In this document: positions 28,379 to 36,822 of the stretch, piece after piece | How positions within the stretch are numbered: position 1 is the stretch's first letter | Layout: each line of letters begins with the position of its first letter | Assembly: GCA_903827265.1 (NCBI GenBank) | Contig: CAIKHN010000004.1 | Coordinates: 1-40,066, forward strand | DNA: 40,066 nucleotides | From: Candidatus Uhrbacteria bacterium | Lineage (GTDB): Bacteria > Patescibacteriota > Patescibacteriia > UBA9934 | Direction of reading: 5' to 3' | Notes under the pieces: model-generated | What the model was told of the DNA's origin: nothing | Seen by the model: the letters and a program-made list of their open reading frames with translations, nothing else | The model's database searches: none | Translations under genes and position numbers: made by a program

Positions 28379-28454
28379 GGGCCGATGATGGTAAAGGCAA
28401 CCATACCCGATTTGACACCGGGAATCACGAGTTCGATTCTCGTTCGGTCCACCA
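28379..28454 (+). tRNA. tRNA with atypical anticodon arm (isotype unresolved)
   Basis: A 76-nt cloverleaf: acceptor GGGCCGA pairs with TCGGTCC (one G-T), discriminator A and an encoded CCA; D stem ATGG/CCAT with GG in the loop; T arm ACGAG-TTCGATT-CTCGT perfect. The anticodon arm is CCCGA-TTTGACA-CCGGG with an A-C mismatch at the last stem pair. By strict geometry the anticodon is TGA (Ser) with C at position 37, but the 4-nt variable region does not fit tRNA-Ser; a one-base shift gives GAC (Val) with the normal T33 and A37. Val is the more likely identity, or the gene may be degenerate. Confidence 0.6.
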
Positions 28455-29420: not shown

Positions 29421-30662
29421 ATGGACCTCTTCGACTCTGTCATCACCCAACCTTCCGCAAACACGCCACTGGCGGAACGAATGCGGCCAAGGACTCTTGA
29501 GGAATTCGAGGGTCAGCAGGATGTGGTTGGGCCGGGTTCGCCGCTGCACACGGCAATCGTAAGCGACGATGTTCCGTCGTTGATGCTTTGGGGTCCGCCG
29601 GGAACGGGAAAGACGACGCTCGCACGAATCGTCGCGACAATGACGAAAGCGCGCTTCGTTCCCTTCAGCGCGGTCGGGGGCAGCGTCAAAGATGTGCGGA
29701 CGATTATCGATCAAGCAGAAACCGATCGAAAATATTACAAACGAAAAACAATTTTGTTCGTTGATGAGATTCATCGCTTCAACAAAGCACAGCAGGATGC
29801 ATTTCTTCCGTCGGTCGAAAATGGAACAATCATTCTCATCGGCGCGACCACAGAAAATCCCTCGTTCGCCGTGAATGGCGCGTTGCTTTCGCGATCTCGC
29901 GTCATCGTCCTAAAGCAACTCGAACCAGAATCGATCGTGAAAATCTTGCAACGCGCAATCGAGGATAAAGAACTCGGACTCGGTAAAGAACATATTGTTA
30001 TCGACGACGACGCGATTGGCATGCTCGCAAACTTTGCGAATGGCGATGCGCGATCGGCGTTGAACACGCTTGATCTGGCGGTGAAGACTTCGAAGGGCTC
30101 GCAGATCACCACCGATCTCATCAAAACTGCGCTCGCGAAATCACATCTCCACTACGATAAAGACGGTGAGGAGCATTACAACATTATCTCTGCGCTGCAT
30201 AAATCGATGCGTGGGAATGATGCGAATGCAGCGCTGTATTGGATGGGACGAATGTTGTTATCCGGGGAAGATCCACGATATGTGACGCGTCGATTAATTC
30301 GATTCGCGAGCGAAGATATCGGTTTAGCCGATCCAAACGCTCTTGTCCAAGCTCTCGCAGCCCACGATGCTGCAGGATCGATCGGTATGCCGGAATGCAG
30401 CGTGAACATTGCACAATGCGTCGCCTACTTATCGAAAGCACCAAAGTCGAATGCACTCTACACCGCTTGGCAAGCAATCAACGACGACATTCAAAATCTT
30501 CCAAACGAACCCGTTCCGATCCATCTTCGCAATGCTCCAACGAAATTGATGAAAGACCTCGGCTACGGTAGGGGTTACAAATATACGCCGAACTTTAAGA
30601 ATGCAGACGATGCAAAACAGGATTATCTCCCAGAACGGTTAAAAAAGAAAAAATATCTTTGA
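29421..30662 (+). CDS. rarA: Replication-associated recombination protein RarA (MgsA), AAA+ ATPase
   Basis: RarA acts at stalled replication forks and binds SSB. The 413 residues carry Walker A GPPGTGKTT (58-66), Walker B FVDEIHRF, sensor region GATTENPSF, and the C-terminal MgsA tetramerisation domain (SEDIGLADPNALVQALAAHDA and FKNADDAKQDYLPE). Length is close to the family (about 420-450). It begins four bases after the methyltransferase stop (TAG-AGAT-ATG) and so is probably coupled. Confidence 0.95.
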   Translation: MDLFDSVITQPSANTPLAERMRPRTLEEFEGQQDVVGPGSPLHTAIVSDDVPSLMLWGPPGTGKTTLARIVATMTKARFVPFSAVGGSVKDVRTIIDQAETDRKYYKRKTILFVDEIHRFNKAQQDAFLPSVENGTIILIGATTENPSFAVNGALLSRSRVIVLKQLEPESIVKILQRAIEDKELGLGKEHIVIDDDAIGMLANFANGDARSALNTLDLAVKTSKGSQITTDLIKTALAKSHLHYDKDGEEHYNIISALHKSMRGNDANAALYWMGRMLLSGEDPRYVTRRLIRFASEDIGLADPNALVQALAAHDAAGSIGMPECSVNIAQCVAYLSKAPKSNALYTAWQAINDDIQNLPNEPVPIHLRNAPTKLMKDLGYGRGYKYTPNFKNADDAKQDYLPERLKKKKYL

Positions 30663-30664
30663 GG

Positions 30665-30733
30665 ATAAAAAGGAAAGCCGGCCGAGCTCTAGTCCCCCGC
30701 GAATCAAATCAAGCGGGGAACGAGCTCGGCCGG
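30665..30733 (-). terminator. Terminator of the candidate ncRNA
   Basis: CCGGCCGAGCTC (30678-30689) and GAGCTCGGCCGG (30722-30733) form a perfect 12-bp stem with inner CCCCGC/GCGGGG; on the minus strand CTTTCCTTTTTATC follows. No T-run follows on the plus strand, so it serves the minus strand, against rarA. Confidence 0.7.
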
Positions 30734-31050
30734 ACAGTACCGCACGGTGATGCAAAGGCCGCCTCCCCAGATGGCCAATGCTCCTGTGCGATGAGAAATT
30801 GCTGGCGTGTGCCGCCCGCCCGTGAACCAGTGTTCGAGGAGACGAGACGACCGGTGGATGTAGCGGACACGCCGAGCAATAAGTGAGAGGCTGACGGAAA
30901 CAAGAAAAGGGGAAAGCGTCACGAATCGTTCGCTCACGAACCCACAAACCCCGCCTCCGTCAGCTGCGAACACGAATGGATGGCCCCACAGCCCGAACAT
31001 TCGCGCTCGCGCAACAGCCAACCACGTACGAGGAGGACAGCTGTCAGCGC
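30665..31050 (-). ncRNA. Candidate ~385-nt structured non-coding RNA
   Basis: The 429-nt gap between rarA and the surface-protein gene has no convincing protein gene but has a complete RNA-gene layout on the minus strand: an extended -10 promoter at 31056-31064, strong stems, and a terminator at its end. Stems seen: the palindrome GACAGCTGTC (31037-31046); GCTGACGGA (30890-30898) with TCCGTCAGC (30956-30964); a 17-bp stem with one bulge per side, ATTGCTGGCGTGTGCCGC (30798-30815) with GCGGACACGCCGAGCAAT (30863-30880); and the terminator. I find no RNase P, tmRNA, SRP or 6S signature on either strand. Confidence 0.5.
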
Positions 31051-31055
31051 GAATT

Positions 31056-31064
31056 ACTATACCA
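31056..31064 (-). promoter_or_regulatory. Extended -10 promoter of the candidate ncRNA
   Basis: On the minus strand TGG-TATAGT, an extended -10 with 5 of 6 consensus bases, lies directly downstream of the surface-protein terminator. Start point near 31050. The -35 (CTGGCG at 17 nt) is poor. Confidence 0.5.
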
Positions 31065-31072
31065 AAATATCC

Positions 31073-31097
31073 AAAAAACGCCAGCAGGCAGCTAGGC
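31073..31097 (-). terminator. Intrinsic terminator of the surface-protein gene
   Basis: On the minus strand GCC-T-AGC (including the TAG stop codon) pairs with GCTGGC, followed by GTTTTTTGG. Short stem but clean T-run. Confidence 0.55.
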
Positions 31098-34000
31098 ACT
31101 CAACAAAGACGCGCGAGTTTTCAAAAGGGAACGATCGACGGTGATTGGCATACTGATGCCTTCCCCCATCGTGAATCGATTCATCATTGTCGGCGGAAGA
31201 TCGATGACGTAATCTGCCCAATTACTTCCGAACATTTCCTGTGCCACGAATTCGGACGCAATCCACCGAAGTGTCGTTACCCCATCAAGCGATTCCAAAA
31301 GGTAAACACGCGGATCTGATTGTATTTTTACAAGCACAGTACCAACGTTTGGAAGCATTGGTGAACCGATAGGAATTTCTGGAAGCGTTGCACCACTCAC
31401 GGTGACAACCTGCGAAAAATCTCCGTACGTTAAGAACGTTTGAGCATCGAAAAACGGTCGGCGCGTTCCGTCAGTATCAACAAAGTACACGGTCGGCGAA
31501 GCATCGACACGAATGTACTGCCCAGTTGTTACTGGCGTAATATTTTCGGCCTTTCCTGTAAACGGCGAAACGCCAGTTCCTCCGGTTACGACCGAAACTC
31601 CAGGAATCATCTCCGTTGGCGTGACCGGCGGTACCGTAGGTTCCGCAGTGGACGGCGAGGAAGCGCCAGCGCACGTAACCGTAAAGACCGCGTCAGATTC
31701 GTCCGAAGCGAGATACGTCACTAAATCGCCGCCACGAACAAACACCTGAACCGTTTTTGAGGTAATACACGGAATAGTCCAAACGTACGCGCCAATATTT
31801 GGAATATCTCGAGCAATGGTCGTCTTTGTTTTTCCGGAGTCTGTCGAGTACGTCAGGATAACCGCCGGAAGCGCAGCATCGTTCGTTGAGGTCCAGCGAA
31901 TGTTCGTCGAACTTCCGCCAACAAAAGTCTCTCCGCCATTTGGCGAGCTCAATGTTATCGTTGGAACAACAAGGCCCGTCGTTGGAGACGTCGAAACTGA
32001 CGACGAATGACGGCTCGCAGTAATAAACGTTGCGGGATGCGCCAGTTCACCAATACCGCTCAACGCTCCGGCGAACGGGATGCCTGCAGTGTCTGTTGCT
32101 GCTGTGACGTACCACGAATACGTAGTAAACGGCGCCAACGGTGCAGTGTGTGCAATGGTTACGACGGTATTCCCCGACGACCACGTCTCGCTTACGCCGG
32201 ACATAACCGGACTCGTAACGTACGCGAGCGTTGCAGTATTTACTGGTTCGCTAAACGTAATCACGAGCGACGCTGTACTCGAAACTGAACTCACGCCATT
32301 CACCGGCGAAAATGTAAGAGCGATAGGGCCAGAAGCGTCAGTCGCCGTTGCCGACCCTGACGTCGTGGCGTTTGCAGACGTATCACTCACACTGCCGACG
32401 AGCGTCACAAGTGGCGTAATTGCAGTATCGCCAAGCGAACCCTCGGTCAGAATGATTGTTACAACACCGGCAGACGTTTCCGATGCGCTAGTGACAGTGT
32501 ATCCCGCAACAGTAAAATCGGCGCCGGAAACCGTAGAACCATCAAGATCTTTCGAGAACGTCACGACAATTTTATCGATGTGTCCATCGGAATCCGCATC
32601 GCCCGTTACTGCAGAAACTACACTTGCGACCGACTGCGTCGTCGAACTGGATGTTGCGCTGAAATCGGAAACAGAAATCGCCGATGAATCGCTGTCGTAT
32701 GCCTCGACCGCAAAATAATACGTTGTATTCGGCGTGAGGCCTGTGACTGTTCCCGATGTCACGCTTCCGGCGAATGTTGCTGTTGATGTTAGTGCATCAG
32801 ATGCGGTTCCGTATTTAACGTAATATCCCGCAACCGTTGCTTCATACGGAACTAAACTCGTCCAGTTTACCGTTGCCTGTCGAGCCGTCACCGACGAAAT
32901 GCTCGTGAGCGTTGGCTGCATGAACGATAACGCCTGAATGCGAGCGATACGAACATACCCCGTTGCATTTGGATGGACCGTTCCGGTGTATTCCCCAACG
33001 TGATGAATGTTGGTTGGGTTGTACCAGTCCGCACCTCCTTGGAGTCCAAGCGATGCACGTAACGTGTCAATTACTGGAAGATATTGCAAAACGTATGTGC
33101 TGTCTGCACCACCGGACCCCGTACGACCGTCATAGTTCGGATAGTTCAAATAAATCTGTGACGCCGACGCGCCGTACGTTGTTGTTAAGGTATTAATCAA
33201 CGACGTCATGTTCGACTCGTACGTTGACGATGAGACGCCGACGTTTGCATCGTTCACACCAAGTGTAATAACCCACTTATTTGGAGCAAGCGCGTTCTGG
33301 CGGGACGTCCACGCCGCATCAATCACGGTCGATACGTAATTGGACGACTTAATTCCTGCATAACCTTCGTTCATCAAAAACACAGGATACCCGTAGTACG
33401 TCGCAAGCTTATCGTTAAGATCGGTCAAGAAACTTTCTTTGTATGTTCCGTTAAATGAACCATGTTGCGGGAACTGACGGTTATCTGCCGACACTGTTCC
33501 GGAATCTCCGTCGAGCCAACTGGAAACTGTACCAGCATCAATGGTTCCACTGACACCTTCCGTCACGCTATCTCCAATGAATGTAATAATATCGCCAATA
33601 CCAACGCCAGTGCGCGTATCGTGAGAATCGGTGCCGCCAAAACGCGTTACTCCGTCCGCCTGAAGCGAATACGCATCGAGCGTGTATGTTCCTTTCGCAA
33701 GGCCAGTGAACGAAGCGGAATACGGAGCAGAGAGGTCAATTAATGTCTGCTGGCTACCCAAGCCTTCGTTCAAAACAAATTCCACACCACCACCCGATGG
33801 AAGAATTCCTGTTGTTGCCGTCACCGACAGCGTTGTCGATGTTTGAATGTATGGAATGTAGATCGTTCCTCCGCCGTCGACGATTGCGAGCGTTGCAACA
33901 TCCGTCGCCCCGGCAACCGCGGCTGCAGGCGAAGAAATCGTCACAACAGGCGTCGATCCATACACGTACACGTCATCGAACGACCCCGTTTCTGCCGAAT

Positions 34001-35837
34001 TGGACTTTCCAAGCGCAAACGACCCTGAGCTGTATGTCGCGCTCGTGTCAGTGTAGGAAATTTGTGGAACCGCCGGACGCTCTGTCCCTGCTTTCCAAAT
34101 GTACAAACTCAACACAGCCTGGTTTGATCCGTTATCGATCGCTGATGCTTCGACGTTATACCAGACACTCGCCTCTTGCGGTGGCGCAGCGGTACTCGTC
34201 GCAAGGGTTGTAATGCTCGAGCCGGCCGTTGTGACGCTCAACGTCCACGTATCACCACTGTGCCAAAACACATAACCCGCGCTCGCACTCGACTGCTGTC
34301 GCAACCAAATTTGCCCAGCGTTATTGCTTGCCGCACTTGCCTGATATTTTGCGGTAACAATTTGGTTCGCAAGCTGGATGCTACTGTTCGTGATTTTGTT
34401 TGTATAAAAATCCGGCGTACTTGCAGTACCACTCACTGCACGGTTACTCGAGATGTCTGCCGCCGCCCAAGTACCGCCCAAAATAGACCAACCGTTTTGC
34501 CCTGCGATCGTCGCAACCGTCGATGACGTAAACGGATCACTAAACGCTGATGCGTACGGTACTTGTCGTAAATATAAAGGAGTTCCGTATGCGCCAACAT
34601 TGTCGTACGGGAACAGCGTGTAGTAATAGGTTGTGCCATTTGTGAGGCCGCTATGTGTTGTACTGCTCGTTGCACCAGAACTTCCCGTCACGCTCGCAAG
34701 AAGCGATCCATCTGATGTCGATGTTGGATACGCGCTCGTGCTGTACCGGACCATGGTTCCAGCGTAGTTCGTGTACGTTGGATTGGTCCATGAAAGCGCA
34801 ATGGCACTATCAGCCGGTGTTGCGGTCGCAAGTGAATCACCAATATTTCCGTAATAAGTAATGTTATCGAATTCTGCAACGGTTGTTCCGGTTTTTCCAA
34901 CGGAAAATACACCCTGCGCAAAGCGATTAAATGTGTCGGTGTATGTCACGGTTGGCGTCGACGGCTTCGCGCTTCCACGCGCCCACACATATCCATTCAA
35001 CACCACCTGACCAGACGAATTGTTTACCGCGGAAAATTCAACCGTGTACCACGTCGCCGAAGAAATCGCGAACGAAGTGGCGCCGAGCGTTGTCTGTGCA
35101 GCTCCAGTCGTCGTTTTATACGCAATACGTGCCTGACCACCGGTAAACCATAAAAAATATCCGCCCGCATCTCCCGTCGATGACCCGGCACGCAAAAATG
35201 CCTGACCCGGCGATGACGTCGTAGAGCCTTTCCAATCGTAACGGACCATTTGATCAGTGTATCTCGCAGCATTACCACCGTTGAGTACACGATACAAATG
35301 GAAACCGAGGTTATCGCTTCCACTTTGCAACGTCTGCTCCCCCGCGGTATCGATAACGTTCCATGTGCCGCTCACTGTTGCCCATCCATTCTGACCATTC
35401 ACCGCCGCAACGCTGTCGCTTTCAAAATCCTCTGTAAATTGCGCAGCCATGACATACTGCTGAGCATTCACCGCTGCACTATATTCCGGCGTGACGTTGT
35501 GTGAAAACAATGAAAAGTAATATGTCGTATTGTTTGTCAGGCCGCTCACAGTAAGCGAACTCGTTCCGCTTGCAACACCAGCAACATCGCTCGCAAGCGT
35601 TCCGTCAGATGTTGTCGTAGGAAATGCTGTTGTGCTGTATCGCACCATTGTTCCAGTGAAACCCGCGGTTGCAGGGTTCGACCACGACAATGACACCTGA
35701 CCACTCGCGGCTAATGGGACGACTTTTGTCACGACTGCTGGAGCTGCCGCGAATACCGTTGATGTCCAGAGCATCATTCCACAAAACGCAAAAACGATAC
35801 TTTTCAAGTACGACGGAAGTCTAAAACGAAAAGACAT
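31092..35837 (-). CDS. Giant secreted surface protein with Fn3, laminin-G-like, SGNH hydrolase and Patescibacteria C-terminal modules
   Basis: 1581 residues, Thr/Ser/Ala-rich. A signal peptide (1-31, ending VFAAAP) is followed by two copies of a Fn3 + jelly-roll unit (about 35-330 and 335-630; GTMVRYSTTAFPTTTSDG against GTMVRYSTSAYPTSTSDG), a beta-domain (635-745), an SGNH/GDSL hydrolase domain (745-970; Ser757 in GDSVTEG, Asn862 in GVND, His955 in VHPN), a further Fn3 (975-1065), two Ig-like domains (1075-1280), a SPNGGE domain (1292-1392) and a C-terminal module with YFVDTDGTRRPF and SDPRVYLLE, common at the ends of Patescibacteria surface proteins. The Asp of the usual DxxH before the catalytic His is Gly952. 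Likely a cell-surface adhesin or esterase. A perfect TATAAT lies 24 nt upstream. Confidence 0.85.
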   Translation of the reverse strand: MSFRFRLPSYLKSIVFAFCGMMLWTSTVFAAAPAVVTKVVPLAASGQVSLSWSNPATAGFTGTMVRYSTTAFPTTTSDGTLASDVAGVASGTSSLTVSGLTNNTTYYFSLFSHNVTPEYSAAVNAQQYVMAAQFTEDFESDSVAAVNGQNGWATVSGTWNVIDTAGEQTLQSGSDNLGFHLYRVLNGGNAARYTDQMVRYDWKGSTTSSPGQAFLRAGSSTGDAGGYFLWFTGGQARIAYKTTTGAAQTTLGATSFAISSATWYTVEFSAVNNSSGQVVLNGYVWARGSAKPSTPTVTYTDTFNRFAQGVFSVGKTGTTVAEFDNITYYGNIGDSLATATPADSAIALSWTNPTYTNYAGTMVRYSTSAYPTSTSDGSLLASVTGSSGATSSTTHSGLTNGTTYYYTLFPYDNVGAYGTPLYLRQVPYASAFSDPFTSSTVATIAGQNGWSILGGTWAAADISSNRAVSGTASTPDFYTNKITNSSIQLANQIVTAKYQASAASNNAGQIWLRQQSSASAGYVFWHSGDTWTLSVTTAGSSITTLATSTAAPPQEASVWYNVEASAIDNGSNQAVLSLYIWKAGTERPAVPQISYTDTSATYSSGSFALGKSNSAETGSFDDVYVYGSTPVVTISSPAAAVAGATDVATLAIVDGGGTIYIPYIQTSTTLSVTATTGILPSGGGVEFVLNEGLGSQQTLIDLSAPYSASFTGLAKGTYTLDAYSLQADGVTRFGGTDSHDTRTGVGIGDIITFIGDSVTEGVSGTIDAGTVSSWLDGDSGTVSADNRQFPQHGSFNGTYKESFLTDLNDKLATYYGYPVFLMNEGYAGIKSSNYVSTVIDAAWTSRQNALAPNKWVITLGVNDANVGVSSSTYESNMTSLINTLTTTYGASASQIYLNYPNYDGRTGSGGADSTYVLQYLPVIDTLRASLGLQGGADWYNPTNIHHVGEYTGTVHPNATGYVRIARIQALSFMQPTLTSISSVTARQATVNWTSLVPYEATVAGYYVKYGTASDALTSTATFAGSVTSGTVTGLTPNTTYYFAVEAYDSDSSAISVSDFSATSSSTTQSVASVVSAVTGDADSDGHIDKIVVTFSKDLDGSTVSGADFTVAGYTVTSASETSAGVVTIILTEGSLGDTAITPLVTLVGSVSDTSANATTSGSATATDASGPIALTFSPVNGVSSVSSTASLVITFSEPVNTATLAYVTSPVMSGVSETWSSGNTVVTIAHTAPLAPFTTYSWYVTAATDTAGIPFAGALSGIGELAHPATFITASRHSSSVSTSPTTGLVVPTITLSSPNGGETFVGGSSTNIRWTSTNDAALPAVILTYSTDSGKTKTTIARDIPNIGAYVWTIPCITSKTVQVFVRGGDLVTYLASDESDAVFTVTCAGASSPSTAEPTVPPVTPTEMIPGVSVVTGGTGVSPFTGKAENITPVTTGQYIRVDASPTVYFVDTDGTRRPFFDAQTFLTYGDFSQVVTVSGATLPEIPIGSPMLPNVGTVLVKIQSDPRVYLLESLDGVTTLRWIASEFVAQEMFGSNWADYVIDLPPTMMNRFTMGEGISMPITVDRSLLKTRASLLSA

Positions 35838-35860
35838 AGATCTCAGGTGAATACCTGCAA

Positions 35861-35866
35861 ATTATA
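35861..35866 (-). promoter_or_regulatory. -10 box of the surface-protein gene
   Basis: On the minus strand a perfect TATAAT, 23 nt before the ATG at 35837; the -35 is weak (TGGTGT at 17 nt). The short leader contains CAGGT-ATTC-ACCTG, a 5-bp hairpin, and no Shine-Dalgarno site. Confidence 0.5.
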
Positions 35867-35895
35867 CACCTCGTACGCCACAAACACCATGGTAT

Positions 35896-36822
35896 TTATT
35901 TCTCCTGAGACTCGATCCACCGTTCCGCATCAAGTGCCGCCATACAACCAGTCCCAGCTGCAGTAACCGCCTGACGATACACGTGATCCGCAACATCGCC
36001 ACACGCAAAAATGCCCGGAATATTGGTCGCAGTCGACTTTGAGGGAAGCACAATATAACCCTTCTCATCGAGATCGATGAGGCCTTTAAAGATTACTGTG
36101 TTCGGCTTGTGACCGATTGCCATAAAAATTCCATCGCACGTGATGCTTCCCTCTTCGCCACTAACGACATTTCGTGTTCGAAGACTCGTGACGTGATCGT
36201 CGCCGAGAATCTCTTCAACCGTCGTATTCATGACAAGCGCAATCTTTGGATTATTTTTGGCCTTATCAATCATGATTTTTGATGCACGGAACTCCTCACG
36301 ACGATGCACGATGGTCACTTTATTTGCGAATCGTGTAAGAAACGTCGCTTCTTCCATTGCGGTGTCTCCCCCGCCAACCACCACAATCTCTTTGCCACGG
36401 AAAAAGAATCCATCACAGGTTGCACACGCAGAAACACCTTTTCCTTGAAGTCGCTCTTCCCCAGGAACGCCAAGCCACATCGCGGATGCACCCGTCGCGA
36501 TAATCACCGCCTTTGACTGAATCGATCGCGTTGCGGTTTTGATGGTGAATGGGGATGAAACTCCGATGATTTCAGTCACGACGTCATCGATCATTTCTGT
36601 TCCAAAACGAAGCGCTTGCTTCTTTAACTTTTCCATCAGCTCAGATCCAAGCACACCATCGGCCTCACCCGGCCAGTTCTCTACTTCCGACGTAAGCGTC
36701 AACTGCCCGCCAGGCTGTAAACCAGCAATCATTGTTGGTGAAAGATTCGCACGCGCAGCATAAATCGCCGCAGTATACCCCGCAGGACCAGAACCAATAA
36801 TCACGACGTTTTGAATTTCCAT
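35896..36822 (-). CDS. trxB: Thioredoxin reductase
   Basis: FAD flavoenzyme that reduces thioredoxin with NAD(P)H. The 308 residues have the FAD motif GSGPAGYTAAIYAARA (10-25), the redox pair Cys133-Cys136 in ACATCDGF, the nucleotide-binding GGGDTAMEEA, and the C-terminal FACGDVAD. Pairs functionally with trxA, 560 nt upstream, though a DUF559 gene lies between them. TGA-TAAACT, an extended -10, ends ten bases before the ATG, so trxB may have its own near-leaderless transcript. Confidence 0.96.
   Translation of the reverse strand: MEIQNVVIIGSGPAGYTAAIYAARANLSPTMIAGLQPGGQLTLTSEVENWPGEADGVLGSELMEKLKKQALRFGTEMIDDVVTEIIGVSSPFTIKTATRSIQSKAVIIATGASAMWLGVPGEERLQGKGVSACATCDGFFFRGKEIVVVGGGDTAMEEATFLTRFANKVTIVHRREEFRASKIMIDKAKNNPKIALVMNTTVEEILGDDHVTSLRTRNVVSGEEGSITCDGIFMAIGHKPNTVIFKGLIDLDEKGYIVLPSKSTATNIPGIFACGDVADHVYRQAVTAAGTGCMAALDAERWIESQEK

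Follow-up and report, generated by a model that had tools for sequence, protein, structure and literature searches.

A predicted structured non-coding RNA behind trxB in one genus of Candidatus Uhrbacteria

Introduction

Two groups of described bacterial RNAs come closest to the locus reported here. One is represented by Staphylococcus aureus RNAIII, whose C-rich loops act as seeds (PMC2837412). The other comprises RNAs of the GOLLD, ROOL and OLE type, which are held together with the help of A-minor contacts (PMC12286853). In the literature that we searched, no lineage-specific regulatory RNA had been described for Uhrbacteria.

Here we analysed a stretch of 40,066 nucleotides of a Candidatus Uhrbacteria genome (NCBI GenBank assembly GCA_903827265.1, contig CAIKHN010000004.1), termed the window throughout. 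Its minus strand very probably encodes a structured non-coding RNA about 380 nt long, with a predicted transcript that spans about 31049 to 30668. The four other genomes of the genus are denoted G001 to G004.

Results

The predicted RNA of about 382 nt (30668-31049, minus strand) lies in an intergenic gap of 429 nt, which extends from the stop codon of rarA at 30662 (29421-30662, plus strand; MgsA_C and AAA matches) to a minus-strand surface-protein ORF of 1581 aa (31092-35837; fn3, Big_5 and a sub-threshold GDSL match). The GC content at the RNA locus is 58%, compared to about 48-55% in its surroundings. The interval between rarA and trxB gathers insertions: the 1581-aa fn3/Big_5 protein in the window (interval 30662-35896) and an ABC-transporter-like gene in G001 and G004 (L002, L098; G004 annotated by eye). 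Elsewhere in the window, a predicted tRNA-Ser(TGA) at 28379-28454 overlaps the mechanical start of a RsmB/F methyltransferase ORF at 28385, and the true start of this ORF is probably located downstream of that position.

A sequence-only reading of the locus had proposed that the RNA possesses its own promoter, which held up in part: the extended -10 element TGG-TATAGT is present (31056-31064, minus strand), with a transcription start expected near 31049, but it comes without a -35 match and a consensus scan gave no promoter. The motif TTT(C/G)GTATA is common to the window and the G004 homologue, and TTTCGTGTAGTAT is present in G001. The intrinsic terminator proposed in the same reading (30678-30733, minus strand) was confirmed as a perfect inverted repeat, of which the 12-bp stem (30678-30689 with 30722-30733) encloses a variable inner extension and is followed by CUUUCCUUUUU; the U-rich tail CUUUCCUUUU (30668-30677) is the predicted transcript end, according to the sequence and the four-genome alignment. 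In all four genomes the terminator stem is kept, while its inner part differs with paired changes. For the terminator assigned to the upstream gene, a 5-bp stem was indeed found, but shuffles of the region yield 1.5 such sites by chance.

The minus strand folds with an energy of -193.8 kcal/mol, compared to -149.0 +/- 6.0 kcal/mol for shuffled sequences (z -7.45, none of 100 as good), and with a z of -5.5 once the terminator hairpin is left out. The homologues described below fold with z values of -4.8 (G003), -5.9 (G001) and, for the two halves in G004, -6.4 and -3.2. In the window, the predicted domains follow the order H1-H2-H3-K-H5-terminator, all on the minus strand. Hairpin H1 (31010-31049) bears the loop CCUCCUCGUA, present in two genomes, and has a counterpart in G004 at L002:2447-2485. 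H2 (30966-31010), with a 13-bp stem, stems from the predicted fold alone, and H3 (30889-30966), with a 16-bp stem formed by GCUGACGGAGG and UUUCCGUCAGC, has a G004 counterpart at L002:2346-2423. The K hairpin (30796-30883) is closed by the base AUUGC...GCAAU and carries the apical loop UCUCCU at about 30837-30842. Hairpin H5 (30735-30793), whose helices show covariation across four genomes, ends in the invariant tip CUGGGGAG and is followed by the linker GGUACUG. Two stems had been singled out from the sequence before: the long near-perfect one (around 30798-30815 with 30863-30880) was recovered as the base of the K hairpin, whereas a long-range stem of 9 bp does not stand out in the best fold.

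Homologues were found in three of the four other genomes of the genus (G001, G003 and G004), in each case on the same strand as trxB and immediately 3' of it. In G003, where the locus was reached via the neighbouring rarA, the RNA lies directly between rarA and trxB. It follows trxB directly in G001 and G004 as well, while in the window a surface-protein gene of 4.7 kb lies between the two; save for this one gene, the RNA adjoins trxB in all four testable genomes. A covariance model of the 3' domain (R1), built from the window and G003 alone, matched G004 with an E-value of 4e-20 and, independently, G001 with an E-value of 9e-10. G002 cannot be judged because its contig ends inside trxB (C19:3-707), and the covariance model found no match elsewhere in that genome.

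The candidate RNA has so far been found in one genus of Candidatus Uhrbacteria and has no match in Rfam. Outside the genus, 73 genomes of the order and 381 of the class yielded no homologue, only weak matches that were mainly terminator-like. Four such weak extra matches came from a second model (R2) run over the 381 class genomes; all four, including the three that aligned at full length, mainly cover the GGCCG terminator-like part, do not keep the H5 tip and were rejected. In a genome of the neighbouring genus g3 (G018), rarA and trxB converge about 41 nt apart without the RNA, and in the family's other genera no counterpart was found downstream of trxB. In one of these genera (G005, L114), a promoter-like pair TTGACT-TATGTT and hairpin-rich sequence were observed 3' of trxB, and the RNA model did not match there. 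Plain DNA similarity recovered pieces in G004 only, plus a weak match in G007 that is probably spurious. An exact motif scan of the contig database gave 55 matches, of which only two, both from Uhrbacteria, fit the model well and the rest were chance-like; two matches of a pattern scan in IMG/VR were not homologous by the model, and blastn against phages and plasmids gave no match.

The 3' domain shows strong covariation, and H1 shows covariation as well. In the 3' domain (H5 plus terminator), two-sided changes occur in 15 of 37 base pairs across four genomes, a value reached by none of 500 shuffles, although fitting the alignment to the model inflates covariation somewhat (R1 itself was built without G001 and G004). 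In the same four genomes 96.5% of the pair cells are standard, and pairing falls to about 40% if the partners are slid by one column. Between the window and G004, five of nine H1 pairs changed on both sides, all pairs are kept and the loop is nearly identical. The 5' half of the RNA is poorly conserved.

A transcript from the plus strand was considered and rejected by the strand comparison of consensus folds and by the G-U pairs. Consensus folding gave -43.8 with a covariation term of -3.6 for the minus strand, compared to -27.6 and -0.1 for the plus strand; in each of the homologues, too, the minus strand gives the better fold. Furthermore, G-U pairs make up 24 of 137 paired cells on the minus strand; read from the plus strand, these cells would be mismatched. 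The structure is thus under selection on the minus strand, at a fixed place behind trxB and without a shared protein frame.

Alongside this conservation, local alignments of the four sequences provisionally point to rearranged hairpins. The K hairpin, recognised by its base AUUGC...GCAAU and its motif UCUCCU, is located at the 5' end in G001 and G004 instead. In G004, a TIGR00730-like gene (L002:1767-2306; 94.6 bits, just under the cut-off of 96.35) lies on the same strand between the H3 and H5 domains, and therefore the RNA may be split in two there. This gene is trailed by a GC-rich hairpin of its own.

A search of the whole window against 4227 Rfam families returned nothing at the gathering score, and at a relaxed threshold two unrelated chance matches were obtained, to the terminator stem only (E 0.095 and 0.15). 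RNase P RNA and tmRNA are of similar size, near 380-400 nt, and their exclusion in the sequence-only reading proved right, as both are encoded elsewhere in the same genome. The RNase P RNA (RF00010) is located on a different contig (C2:30913-31326) and its covariance model had no match at the locus; the tmRNA (RF00023) was found at C3:72846-73244, and at the locus neither ARAGORN (which also sought tRNAs) nor the Rfam tmRNA model reported one. With 97.8 bits, the RNase P RNA (G000:C2:30913-31326, L021) falls narrowly short of the gathering score set by Rfam (100), and in this it resembles diverged RNase P RNAs that have been reported from CPR (PMC8172020).

Two motifs hardly vary among the homologues, UCUCCU in K and CUGGGGAG in H5, and they are complementary to each other. 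The K loop and its flanks (CGUCUCCUC) are identical in four genomes; the apical stem is kept in the window, G003 and G004, where UCUCCU forms the hairpin tip, but not in G001. A duplex of the K and H5 loops was predicted at -15.2 kcal/mol in the window, -10.5 in G001 and -11.0 in G004. A random 10-mer reaches the strength of the window duplex against H5 with p 0.0023, and among the about 380 10-mers in the RNA about one partner that strong is expected by chance. The pairing lacks covariation support because neither loop varies, and it is suggestive only.

Discussion

Taken together, the absence of an Rfam match and of a shared reading frame, along with the covariation, supports a lineage-specific non-coding RNA, as had been proposed from the sequence alone. 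Because no homologue turned up in the order and class genomes searched outside the genus, we take it for a fast-changing RNA family in which, by the provisional alignments, hairpins have moved or been interrupted. Which function this RNA might have is a matter of lower confidence. We tentatively favour, at somewhat less than even confidence, a free-standing RNA gene with its own predicted promoter and intrinsic terminator that would act by base pairing. Slightly more tentative still is the fuller picture of an independent regulatory RNA whose C/U-rich loops may pair with G-rich RNA and in which the G-rich loop may mask them. The pyrimidine-rich loops (UCUCCU in K, CCUCCU in H1) would be held open on rigid stems as seeds and might pair with purine-rich stretches of other RNAs. 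The G-rich H5 tip CUGGGGAGG might kiss the K loop, which would either act as an on-off switch for the seed or lock the fold.

An unlikely alternative to this base-pairing regulator is a structural or protein-binding RNA, namely a scaffold or self-assembling particle like OLE, ROOL or GOLLD, in which the kiss of K and H5 would occur within or between copies. The RNA is long, multi-hairpin and equipped with two invariant complementary loops, and its conserved 3' and variable 5' domains follow a pattern described also for GOLLD. However, it is shorter than GOLLD, many members of which exceed 800 nt (PMC12286853), it finds no match in Rfam, and it is A-poor (13% A), with 72% of the unpaired bases in the window being pyrimidines, mostly U and C. 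Such U/C-rich unpaired bases would fit antisense pairing better than a scaffold built on A-minor contacts.

Still less probable, in our view, is an RNA directed at the ribosome, which would tune initiation either by pairing GGGGAGG of H5 with the 16S rRNA 3' end or by mimicking that end with its CCUCCU loops. The 16S rRNA 3' end CACCUCCUUU, located with the Rfam SSU model, is intact and keeps CCUCCU, the loops match both sides, and Shine-Dalgarno sequences are rare: SD-like stretches precede 4 of the 31 ORFs in the window under a mechanical choice of ORFs. Yet a match to a motif of only 6 nt can easily arise by chance. For the base-pairing regulator favoured above, the scarcity of SD-like stretches speaks against a simple SD-blocking role, although the 16S rRNA keeps CCUCCU. 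Likewise, AGGAGACG, which is complementary to K, occurs before ATG 5 times in the window's genome compared to 6 in the control, and no targets of the pairing are therefore visible. Two further observations concern start regions: many ORF starts in the window read ...T-ATG, and in G004 the pattern AGGAGACG-N(2-12)-ATG occurs 9 times compared to once for the reversed pattern, an excess that the remaining four genomes of the genus do not show.

One might speculate that the locus represents a new RNA class, in which a switchable kiss between C/U-rich and G-rich loops governs translation in an organism that has largely abandoned Shine-Dalgarno sequences, and in which hairpin modules move or are broken up by gene insertions between species; we regard this as a long shot.

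We consider it about equally doubtful that the RNA is a structured 3' UTR of trxB, or in the window of the surface-protein gene, which protects or processes that mRNA. It always shares its strand with trxB and directly follows it in three of four genomes, but it stays intact in the window despite the 4.7-kb gene in between, several homologues have a -10-like element in front of it, and its elaborate fold far exceeds a terminator.

Finally, a small protein gene, whether the 131-aa minus-strand ORF at 30704-31099 or else a short frame that follows the SD-like GGGGAGG in H5, is highly improbable and already contradicted by the alignments: although a frame is open in the window and start codons follow GGGGAG in three of four homologues (read by eye), the ORF has no Pfam match, the ORFs of the homologues are unrelated and broken by indels of 1-2 nt, and substitutions follow base pairing rather than codons, which bears out the earlier claim of a gap without a credible protein gene. 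H5 as a Shine-Dalgarno sequence with start codon was dropped because the frames in the window and G004 run without a stop up to the terminator and G001 lacks a start.

The locus thus offers a covariation-backed RNA at a fixed place within a genome reduced to about 0.95 Mb. Between species of a single genus, this RNA changes fast enough to display the rearrangement and interruption of an RNA gene. It is also a ready target for metatranscriptomes.

If compared to known systems, the base-pairing regulator that we favour is most similar to S. aureus RNAIII and the sRNAs with UCCC motifs, which likewise are long, multi-hairpin RNAs with conserved C-rich hairpin loops (PMC2837412); here, UCUCCU is identical in four genomes and forms a hairpin tip in three of them, and the loop CCUCCUCGUA is kept in two. 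In contrast to RNAIII, the RNA described here has no Rfam match, no shared reading frame was found in it, and it belongs to a genome in which Shine-Dalgarno sequences are rare. With GOLLD, ROOL and OLE it has in common an elaborate fold and possible kissing loops, and with GOLLD also the conserved 3' and variable 5' domains (PMC12286853). It had no match in the phage records searched, and it differs from these RNAs by being shorter than GOLLD, A-poor, without a counterpart in Rfam and encoded on the chromosome beside trxB.
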